Assembly: GCF_001428435.1 (NCBI RefSeq)
Contig: NZ_LMSO01000010.1
Location: forward strand, 62,529 to 126,528
Origin: Arthrobacter sp. Soil782
GTDB taxonomy: Bacteria; Actinomycetota; Actinomycetes; Actinomycetales; Micrococcaceae
DNA: 64,000 bases
Direction of reading: 5' to 3'
In this document: positions 19,695-22,562 of the stretch, piece by piece
Numbering within the stretch: position 1 is the first letter of the stretch
Layout of the letters: the number at the start of each line of letters is the position of its first letter
The notes under the pieces: model-generated
Seen by the model: only the letters and a program-made list of their open reading frames with translations
The model's database searches: none
What the model was told of the DNA's origin: nothing
Made by a program: the position numbers and the translations under genes

Positions 19695-19885
19695 TGTTCT
19701 CGTCTACCTAACGACGACGGGCCAGAATGCCTGCAGAGCAGTCCACCTCCTGCGGTGGCTGGCCGATCAGCCGCGGGCGCATTCCGCCTCGGCATGCTGG
19801 GTGCAATAACAGAAAGTTGCGCCCAATGGAAATATGGTAACTCCTGAAGAACGCTGCCGGGACCAAACTGCGCTAAGGTGGGAGC

Positions 19886-19912
19886 ATGTTCGCGCATCTG
19901 CTCCTTATCTAG
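19886..19912 (+). CDS. Leucine-rich leader peptide upstream of leuS
   Basis: Eight codons, ATG-TTC-GCG-CAT-CTG-CTC-CTT-ATC, then TAG (MFAHLLLI). The start has a clear ribosome site (GGTGGGAG immediately upstream). Three consecutive Leu codons fall just before a stop codon that overlaps a GC-rich stem, and an intrinsic terminator follows. This is the arrangement of a classical amino-acid attenuator. Leader attenuation of leuS has been predicted in some other actinobacteria. Too short for ordinary ORF calling. Confidence 0.8.
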   Translation: MFAHLLLI

Positions 19913-19957
19913 CCGCGCATTCCAGCGCGGCCGCCCCTCCTGTGTTGAGGGGCTTTT
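19912..19957 (+). terminator. leuS attenuator: proximal stem plus intrinsic terminator
   Basis: A first stem GCCGCGC (19912-19918) / GCGCGGC (19925-19931) begins at the last base of the leader stop codon. A second stem GCCCCTC (19933-19939) / GAGGGGC (19947-19953) is followed directly by TTTT. The second is a textbook intrinsic terminator in front of leuS. A ribosome stalled on the Leu codons would block the first stem. I could not identify a convincing antiterminator pairing by eye. Confidence 0.8.
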
Positions 19958-20063
19958 GTATGTCCGGGGCCTGCTATGAACCCTGGGCACCCATTCGGGA
20001 GCGGTGAAGCGATGGTGGATGGAGAAGACGGTCACCAGTGGTCAACAGACAGGGCAAGAAACA

Positions 20064-22562
20064 GTGAGCATGAATCCCACGGTGGAAGAGCCGGACGCCG
20101 GTACGTACAGTTTCGCTGACATTGAGGCGAAGTGGCTTCCTGTGTGGGAACAGCTTGACACCTTCACACCGGTCGATGACGGCAGTAGGGAACGCCGCTA
20201 TGTGCTGGACATGTTCCCCTACCCCTCCGGGGACCTTCACATGGGGCACGCGGAGGCCTTCGCGATGGGTGACGTCGTTGCCCGCTACTGGCGGCAGCTA
20301 GGCTACGACGTCCTGCACCCGATCGGCTGGGATTCCTTTGGGCTCCCCGCAGAGAATGCCGCCATCAAACACAACGCCCACCCGAGCGAGTGGACTTACG
20401 CGAACATCGACACCCAGGCGGCGTCCTTCAAGCGCTATGCAATCAGCGCCGACTGGTCCCGGCGCCTTCAGACGTCGGATCCCGAGTACTACCGCTGGAC
20501 CCAGTGGCTATTCCTGCGCTTCTTCGAAAAAGGGCTCGCCTACCGCAAGGATCATCCGGTCAACTGGTGCCCGAAGGACCAGACCGTGCTCGCGAATGAA
20601 CAGGTTGTCAATGGTGCGTGCGAGCGCTGCGGGAGTCCCGTTACAAAGAAGAGCCTGAACCAGTGGTACTTCCGCATCACTGACTACGCAGACCGGCTGC
20701 TTGAAGACATGGAACCGCTGGCGGGACACTGGCCGGAACGTGTGCTGGCGATGCAGCGGAACTGGATCGGCCGGTCCGAGGGCGCGCACGTCACCTTCAC
20801 GATCGAGGCCGACGGCACCCTGCCGGCTACCGATGTCGCCGTCTTCACCACGAGGCCGGACACGCTCCACGGTGCCACGTTCTTCGTTGTAGCCGCAGAC
20901 GCGGATCTCGCCGCGGACCTGGTGACCCCCGAGCATGCTGCTGCACTGTCCGATTACAGGGCGAGCGTCAACACGCTCAGCGACATCGAGCGCCAGTCCA
21001 CTGAACGTGAGAAGACCGGCGTCTTCACCGGACGCTACGCAGTAAACCCGTTGAATGGGGAGAAGCTGCCGGTGTGGGCCGCCGACTATGTGCTCGCAGA
21101 CTACGGCACCGGTGCAATCATGGCCGTTCCTGCACACGACCAGCGTGACCTCGACTTCGCGCGGGCCTTCGATCTGCCCGTGCGCATGGTGGTGGACACC
21201 GGGGAGGAGGATCCGGCGGTCTCCGGCAAGGCGACCACGGGGGAGGGGACGCTGGTCAACTCCGGCGAGCTGAACGGGCTTCCCAAGGATACCGCGATCC
21301 AGCGAGCCATCGAACTGGTCGCCGCCCAGGGTACCGGCGAGCGCACGGTCAATTATCGGCTGCGGGACTGGCTGCTGTCACGTCAGCGCTTCTGGGGAAC
21401 GCCCATCCCGATCATCCACTGCGGTGCATGCGGCGAGGTTCCCGTCCCGGATGAGCAGCTTCCGGTACGCCTTCCCAGCGACCTGCGCGGAGAAGACCTG
21501 GCGCCGAAAGGCACGTCGCCGCTCGCAGCAGCGACAGACTGGGTTAACGTCCAGTGCCCACAGTGTTCGGGACCGGCTACCCGGGATACGGACACCATGG
21601 ACACCTTCGTCGACTCGTCCTGGTACTTCCTGCGCTTCGCCGATCCGCACGCCACCGAGGTGCCGTTCGACTCCGCAAAGGTCAATGAGTGGCTGCCGGT
21701 CGGGCAGTATGTCGGCGGCGTGGAGCACGCCATCCTCCACCTGCTCTACAGCCGGTTCTTCACCAAGGTCCTGTTCGACCTCGGGCTGGTCAACTTCACG
21801 GAGCCTTTCTCTGCCCTTCTCAACCAGGGCCAGGTGCTCAACGGCGGCAAGGCAATGAGCAAGTCGCTGGGCAACGGTGTGAATCTCGGTGAGCAGCTCG
21901 ACCGCTATGGCGTGGACGCCATCCGTCTCACAATGGTCTTTGCCTCCCCACCGGAAGACGACGTGGATTGGGCGGATGTTTCGCCGTCGGGCTCTGCAAA
22001 GTTCCTCGCTCGCGCGTGGCGCCTCGGCGCCGATGTGACGTCCGGGCCCGGCTCCGATGCCGCATCCGGGGACCGCGCGCTGCGTTCGGTCACCCACCGC
22101 ACCCTTGCCGAAGCCGGCGACCTGCTGAAGAACAACAAGTTCAATGTGGTCGTCGCCAAGGTCATGGAACTGGTGAATGCTACGCGAAAGGCGATCGATT
22201 CAGGAGCGGGCGGTGCAGACCCTGCTGTCCGTGAGGCAGCTGAGGTCACGGCGATCATCCTCAGTCTCTTCGCTCCGTACACCGCGGAGGATCTCTGGGA
22301 ACGCCTGGGCCACCCCGCGTCAGTGGCGGCTGCCGGTTGGCCCGCTGTGGATCACTCACTGCTGGTTCAGGACACTGTGACGGCTATCGTCCAGGTTCAG
22401 GGCAAGGTACGGGACCGCCTCGAAGTGCCGGCGGACATCACCGAGGATGCGCTTCGTGAGCTCGCCCTCGATTCCGCGCAGGTCCAGCGGACGCTGGCCG
22501 GCAGGAACATCCGGACGGTTATTGTCCGGGCGCCGAAACTGGTCAACATCGTTCCGGCCTGA
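20064..22562 (+). CDS. leuS: Leucine-tRNA ligase
   Basis: Class I aminoacyl-tRNA synthetase charging tRNA-Leu. Signatures: the HIGH-type motif HMGH at about residue 59 in [14 protein letters not shown], the editing-domain motif [13 protein letters not shown] and the KMSKS-type [10 protein letters not shown]. The cysteine pairs CGAC and CPQC suggest a zinc module. The frame opens at 20004, but [16 protein letters not shown], the conserved N-terminus, begins well inside. GTG 20064 or ATG 20070 are the best starts (832 or 830 residues). Expression is probably set by the attenuator at 19886-19957. Confidence 0.96.

Follow-up and report, generated by a model that had tools for sequence, protein, structure and literature searches.

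How is leuS, the gene for leucyl-transfer RNA (tRNA) synthetase, controlled in Arthrobacter sp. Soil782, where a very short open reading frame (ORF) with a run of leucine (Leu) codons and two hairpins stand in front of it? The question is raised by a stretch of 64,000 nucleotides (nt) of this strain (contig NZ_LMSO01000010.1; hereafter the window), for which an original prediction, made by reading the sequence, had proposed a leucine attenuator upstream of leuS. Our comparison with relatives suggests that the element is a real, conserved and probably leaderless leucine attenuator, and that it is the Micrococcaceae branch of a kind known from Streptomyces.

All parts of the element lie on the forward (+) strand. 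The leader peptide MFAHLLLI is encoded at 19886-19912, from the ATG at 19886-19888 to the TAG stop codon at 19910-19912, and it reads directly as ATG TTC GCG CAT CTG CTC CTT ATC before the stop; relatives also have peptides with Leu runs. The regulatory Leu codons, CTG CTC CTT, occupy 19898-19906, and 5 nt separate the last of them from stem 1 (19912-19931), in which GCCGCGC (19912-19918) pairs with GCGCGGC (19925-19931), beginning in the G of the stop codon. The predicted intrinsic terminator (19933-19957) begins 1 nt past stem 1 and consists of GCCCCTC (19933-19939), the loop CTGTGTT, GAGGGGC (19947-19953) and TTTT (19954-19957), both hairpins being supported by folding and covariation. The leuS gene (20070-22562) starts 112 nt beyond the U tract with ATG 20070, or possibly with GTG 20064, and its product scored 960 bits against TIGR00396, for which the cut-off is 548.4. 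Reading and folding placed the start codon, the peptide, the three Leu codons, the stop codon merged with stem 1 and the terminator with its TTTT where they had been predicted.

The terminator alone folded with -14.0 kcal/mol (z -4.7), which none of 200 shuffles equalled, and both hairpins together (19906-19965) with -29.4 kcal/mol (z -4.3; 1 of 200 as good). Stem 1 alone (19886-19935) was weaker (z -1.6; 15 of 200 as good). A script scan found seven hairpin-plus-TTTT sites on both strands of the window, and the leuS terminator is one of them. The identity of a T-box or another Rfam RNA was rejected because no Rfam model matched, either in the window at gathering scores or at 19700-20150 up to an expectation value (E) of 5.

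The complete element was present in the LeuS upstream regions of 35 of 37 genomes of the same genus, and in the other two the visible parts fit (in L014 masking falls within the terminator, and in L035 the contig starts only inside stem 1). In the other genera of the family it was found in five of nine genomes (L020, L029, L038, L039, L045). RNAalifold returned the same two hairpins for 53 aligned sequences (alignment A1, 53 of 55 leaders, with L062 and L066 left out). In this alignment 96.3% of the cells pair, two-sided changes occur in 11 of 15 pairs (six of eight in stem 1, five of seven in the terminator), and 0 of 500 shuffles reached any of five measures. A second set, 49 sequences outside model building, gave 98.9% pairing and two-sided changes in 9 of 15 pairs (stem 1, five of eight), with four measures reached by 0 of 500 shuffles and the fifth by 4 of 500, in an alignment that was fitted to the model and favours the structure. 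The Leu codons are unpaired in the consensus structure, which ends before leuS. Thus, the alignment of related leuS upstream regions that the original prediction had called for kept Leu codons, stems and terminator and revealed covariation, and the reading as a leucine attenuator of leuS was borne out by the parts and the position kept in relatives. It is very improbable that a constitutive terminator simply follows a chance short ORF without leucine control, since conservation across the class extends to the Leu codons, the spacing and both stems, whereas the flanks look unalignable, and since the valine (Val), isoleucine (Ile) and Leu codons of the sister elements described below fit their genes.

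The covariance model R1 was searched against a class sample of 197 genomes from 91 genera. At E<=1e-8 it gave 74 matches in 74 of these genomes (35 genera), and 73 of the matches lie just upstream of leuS, 38 by coordinates and 35 by the downstream motif PYPSG..H.GH, which we take to be a LeuS motif; at the remaining one (L095) the contig ends. The element stands before leuS in 34 of the 91 genera, or in 35 with the one cut by the contig end. Matches up to E 0.01 came from 106 of the 197 genomes, a number that is not usable as a leuS count because the weaker matches include sister elements; the gene-context check used 95 matches at E<=1e-4 from this longer list. In a phylum sample, 17 of 198 genomes matched R1 at E<=1e-4, five of them outside the class by match alone. 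Among 80 named LeuS loci, 31 matched at E<=0.01 (L255 and L262 weakly), including Arthrobacter, Pseudarthrobacter, Nocardioides, Marmoricola, Microlunatus, Actinomadura, Nonomuraea, Thermoactinospora and others, and there was no R1 match among the listed Glutamicibacter, Kocuria and Microbacteriaceae loci of this set. R1, which was built without genus g55, matched 15 genomes of that genus at E 7e-14 to 2e-11. The fetched loci of g55 encode MRAVRLLLSEPR or MRAVRLLLSGPR, and we infer from the leader peptide that this genus is Streptomyces.

In family f27, a near-identical leader was observed before two diverged LeuS types. One type (L073, L074, L076, L077, L081) has the LeuS motif PYPSGxGLHVGH and falls outside the matches to the window LeuS at 1e-110; the other (L079, L080) shares 68-69% identity with the window LeuS. 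It seems that the leuS gene was replaced here under a kept leader.

The spacing of the parts was counted in leaders parsed from 114 of 138 oriented sequences, or 113 after L041 was dropped as spurious. Counts of stems, gaps, frames and ribosome masks refer to 110 leaders, with L062, L066 and L159 dropped for an unsure terminator parse. The 24 unparsed sequences include apparent non-carriers, cut or masked sequences (L014, L035, L124), non-leuS elements (L136, L139) and carriers missed by the parser (L034, L052, L053, L055, L089, L132, L150). The gap between the last Leu codon and stem 1 is 5 nt in 108 of the 113 leaders, and that between stem 1 and the terminator ranges from -3 to 3 nt in all 110 (57 leaders have no gap, 34 have 1 nt, 13 have 2 nt and one has 3 nt; in five the hairpins overlap by 3). 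Stem 1 itself has 5-13 base pairs, with G-U allowed, and a loop of 4 to 47 nt, and the stop codon moves: in 57 of the 113 leaders it is a TGA that begins 15 nt downstream of the first base of the last Leu codon, and in 46 a TAG that begins 6 nt downstream of that base. As the stop codon moves and the loop of stem 1 varies, the constants are the distances from the last hungry codon to stem 1 and from stem 1 to the terminator. CTT is the final Leu codon of 103 of the 113 leaders and CTC that of 10; in six ORFs of the window, CTT makes up 57 of 392 Leu codons, a contrast that is inflated by the relatedness of the leaders. The last regulatory codon is often NNU (CTT, GTT, ATT) in the leaders of leuS, of ilvB and of citramalate synthase genes, which could be a sign of slow reading at the point of the switch.

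The sequence around the end of the terminator is also conserved. In 105 of 110 leaders the terminator loop contains TG or has it at its border, and [TC][TC]CGG (YYCGG), seen in the window as TGTCCGG at 19961-19967, follows at +5 to +20 past the terminator core in 67 of 110 leuS leaders, compared with 11 of 110 at +20 to +35. These features and the fixed distance between stem 1 and the terminator are what would be expected if stem 1 were a pause hairpin keeping ribosome and polymerase in step, with the leucine decision made in the coupling, by Rho or by a protein factor. We regard this as a rather unlikely explanation, since such a hairpin gives no antitermination by itself and no protein site is known, no search for one having been made. 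The YYCGG motif sits about 10-12 nt beyond the terminator stem, and conservation fades about 16 nt past the terminator core. It was also seen by eye after some terminators of ilvB and citramalate synthase leaders (L148, L152, L157). As a general terminator tail it was not accepted, because only the leuS terminator of the seven in the window has it, and seven are too few to decide.

The start of the leader differs from what was originally read as a well-placed ribosome site. The purines ahead of the ATG overlap a -10-like hexamer, TAAGGT (19874-19879), which was recognised by comparison of relatives and ends 6 nt before the leader ATG, and a Shine-Dalgarno-like 4-mer at -14 to -5 occurs in only 14 of the 113 parsed leaders. 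TANNNK lies 6 or 7 nt before the start in 113 of 113, against a background of 0.8% per position, a count that leans on a parser and a model favouring the -10 box. When the start was taken as the nearest in-frame ATG or GTG without promoter preference, TANNNT was found at 6 or 7 nt in 47 of 49 LeuS-anchored sequences, all of which had already passed the -10-favouring parser. A simple sigma-70 consensus scan found no promoter at the leader. Because of the -10 box in these 47 sequences and the scarcity of Shine-Dalgarno-like 4-mers, the leuS leader is most likely leaderless, with transcription probably starting at or beside the leader ATG; we infer the leaderless start strongly. The experimental leaderless start comes only from the homologous leader leuL2 of Streptomyces lividans, which is reported, in the part of the source available to us, to be leaderless and to have a hairpin and a U run (PMC8079986).

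A leader peptide rich in the regulated codons and a predicted intrinsic terminator between leader and gene are what a classical trp-type attenuator has. In our test for its third part, an antiterminator that competes with the terminator depending on the ribosome, the RNA covered by the ribosome was masked, the transcript was cut before the 3' arm of the terminator, and the probability that the 5' arm pairs upstream was calculated. The Escherichia coli controls switched: from the stall codons to the stop, the probability fell from 0.71 (both Trp codons) to 0.03 for trp, from 0.81-0.82 at the codons tested (0.53 at codon 16) to 0.01 for thr, and from 0.67 (four Leu codons) to 0.01 for leu. In the 113 leuS leaders the medians were 0.13 at the first Leu codon, 0.34 at the last and 0.35 at the stop, with no switch, and with the mask at +11 they were 0.21, 0.12 and 0.36 (110 leaders). 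Since this test finds an antiterminator in E. coli trp, thr and leu, it suggests that none exists as a family trait, in agreement with the original prediction, which had found none by eye. Antiterminator and terminator hairpins are described for the leuS genes of Streptomyces avermitilis and Streptomyces coelicolor in the accessible text of Seliverstov 2005 (PMC1262725), and some single leaders among the 113 do exceed 0.5 (4% with the ribosome at the first Leu codon, 11% at the last and 22% at the stop). Nevertheless, with medians far from the control values, a classical trp-type mechanism appears quite unlikely. A pairing of the Leu codons with the 3' arm of the terminator, noticed by eye, was rejected, because the full RNA without a ribosome still forms the terminator with a mean probability of 0.91.

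In the folding, the position of the ribosome affects stem 1. On the assumption that mRNA enters the ribosome 11 nt from the P-site start, stem 1 stays folded while a Leu codon occupies the A site and is melted by any later step. With the mask ending at +11 from the P-site start, the mean pair probability of stem 1 was 0.96 with the first Leu codon in the A site, 0.95 with the last, 0.61 one codon past the last and 0.05 at the stop codon, and with the mask at +16 it was 0.94 at the first Leu codon. The claim that a stalled ribosome blocks the first stem is therefore doubtful, as stem 1 is free at the first Leu codon under both edges, so that a starved ribosome would mostly leave it standing. 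Close to that earlier idea is the possibility of a tandem-hairpin terminator, in which stem 1 helps termination: a stall at the last Leu codon would cover the base of stem 1 and weaken the terminator, and a finishing ribosome would leave, so that both hairpins form and transcription ends. With the edge at +16, a last-Leu stall indeed covers a median of five stem 1 pairs (pair probability 0.26), and hairpin clusters are said to aid termination in the part of PMC8355165 available. However, the first Leu codon is the first hungry codon met, and a stall there leaves stem 1 free, so that the run of Leu codons would oppose such a switch; moreover, the terminator alone is already strong, at the -14.0 kcal/mol given above. 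We consider this mechanism unlikely, if somewhat less so than the pause hairpin.

On balance, we favour the view that transcription of leuS is attenuated in response to leucine, with the ribosome determining if stem 1 is in place at the time the terminator forms. RNA polymerase would start at the leader ATG and the ribosome at the 5' end. When charged tRNA-Leu is plentiful, the ribosome would pass the three Leu codons and melt stem 1 while reading to the stop, and with stem 1 melted the polymerase would stop at the terminator, which begins 1 nt further on. With uncharged tRNA-Leu, the ribosome would stall at the Leu codons, stem 1 immediately in front of it would stay folded, and the polymerase would continue into leuS. 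Since no alternative pairing in competition with the terminator was found, we propose that an intact stem 1, which abuts the terminator base, hinders closure of the hairpin in the RNA exit channel. That a standing stem 1 means read-through and a melted one termination is chosen because leucine shortage should raise leuS. We hold Leu-dependent control to be very likely; the direction in which stem 1 acts on the terminator is put forward tentatively. A hungry-codon frameshift carrying the ribosome through the terminator was rejected by frame counts in the 110 leaders. In 88 of them the +1 frame has no stop as far as the end of the U tract, which exceeds chance (74.9 +/- 4.8 in 100 shuffle sets, maximum 85), but frame 0 beyond the stop codon is open equally often (88). 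For the -1 frame the count is only 60, and stops occur in either frame among near relatives.

Several points weigh against this mechanism. Without any translation, the model predicts read-through. The trp operon is unlike this. With the mask at +16, a ribosome that has the last Leu codon in its A site leaves little of stem 1 (0.26). No element was found, by pattern and by eye, in four of the nine genomes from other genera of the family (L041, L043, L044, L046), so leuS does not need it everywhere. No support for the weakening of a terminator by an adjacent upstream hairpin was found in the open PubMed Central literature, and hairpin clusters are argued to induce termination (PMC8355165, available part). 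According to earlier work cited in the accessible text of PMC1262725, codon changes in the S. coelicolor ilvB leader had no effect, which counts here if ilvB shares the mechanism. Finally, the leucine response and premature 3' ends at 19957 are predictions from sequence.

The weaker R1 matches in other class members lie before two other genes of branched-chain amino acid metabolism. Some precede ilvB (acetolactate synthase), such as L143 with the leader MHRILVVSEHVV; the family assignment was checked for L143, L144, L147, L152, L157 and L160, and the others were assigned by motif only. Others precede citramalate synthase (L142, L145, L146, L148, L149, L153, L154, L155), with leaders that use Ile/Val codons (MAQALIIG in L148, MAIVSIIIN in L153); TIGR00977 was the best family for all eight loci and above the cut-off in six, the proteins being cut by the fetched stretch. 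The genome of the window itself has a sister element (L101, L177) at G000:C8:177427-177560, upstream of ilvB at G000:C8:177780. Its leader peptide is MQLVSVVLVTKRVA, unless translation begins at an upstream GTG, which would give a longer peptide (L177), and its Val/Leu codons ending in GTT are followed by 5 nt, stem 1 GCGCGTGGC, no gap, the terminator and a T run. A second leuS-type site in this genome was rejected, the only candidate being a weak match (E 0.11) that lies before ilvB. Among the 31 ilvB and citramalate synthase sequences, 25 were parsed (L145, L146 and L154 are among the unparsed). The distance from the last regulatory codon to stem 1 was 5 nt in 19 of the 25, 11 of the 19 being close relatives of the window, and the hairpins were -2 to 4 nt apart in all 25, in a search limited by design to -3 to +11. 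None of the 25 exceeds 0.5 at a stall and then drops close to zero at the stop, as the E. coli controls do. It is conceivable, and we offer it with reserve, that leuS, ilvB and citramalate synthase share an antiterminator-free attenuator design, in which a leaderless ribosome waits on hungry codons ending 5 nt ahead of stem 1 and the state of stem 1 directly sets the strength of the abutting terminator, as a mechanical switch and not through alternative pairings.

The element can be compared with systems described before. The leaders of E. coli trp, leu and thr are ribosome-bound and have a wider hairpin spacing. They also have a leader peptide with the regulated codons, a stop codon and a terminator before the gene, but they gave an antiterminator in the same test, whereas none was found in the leuS leader, whose hairpins touch. 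The S. lividans TK24 leuL2-leuS locus, as far as the source was available, has the same gene, a Leu-run peptide, a hairpin with a U run and a leaderless start as reported (PMC8079986). Like this type, the window element has a Leu-run leader directly upstream of leuS and homology to the Streptomyces-type element. Because several Streptomyces-type loci encode MRAVRLLLSEPR, which is exactly the leuS leader peptide published there for S. lividans, the kind is already known. Compared with the Streptomyces leuS leaders, the window peptide is eight residues long and ends with a stop codon at the beginning of stem 1, not at the end of the 5' arm. The leuS attenuators of S. avermitilis and S. coelicolor are predictions that the accessible part of PMC1262725 labels as classical, while no antiterminator was found here; the element is counted as a variant because our test did not find this part, which defines classical attenuation. 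The same part of that source describes actinobacterial ilvB leaders, which likewise have a leader peptide with regulatory codons and a terminator, in a similar layout as parsed, and the ilvB leader of Corynebacterium diphtheriae is leaderless according to the available text of PMC5784534. The ilvB leaders, which are already known, differ in their Val/Ile/Leu codons and in their gene, that of acetolactate synthase. The LEU element upstream of leuA (PMC1262725, same part) is also a run of Leu codons in an actinobacterial 5' region; in the leuS leader, however, these codons are unpaired in the consensus and a terminator follows.

No leuS leader in Arthrobacter or Micrococcaceae was found in the open PubMed Central literature, and the accessible parts of PMC3896937, PMC9413887 and PMC11995493 do not speak of one. 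No report related to the citramalate synthase leader was found in the same literature, and this leader is possibly unreported. What our comparison adds is a -10 box 6-7 nt before the start without a conserved ribosome site, the lack of an antiterminator, and a rigid layout of last Leu codon, 5 nt, stem 1, almost no gap and terminator, with a similar layout before ilvB and citramalate synthase. By comparison and folding we could establish the leader, its Leu codons, the predicted stems and terminator, their spacing, the link to leuS and the absence of a detectable antiterminator.

The open literature searched describes leuS leaders for Streptomyces only; here one homologous element precedes leuS across more than a third of the class-sample genera (the 34 of 91 given above). 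The spacing shared across branched-chain amino acid genes, with no antiterminator found, points to a coupling of translation and termination outside the trp model. If this is true, the switch would consist of two hairpins that abut at the polymerase exit, without a choice of alternative pairings.
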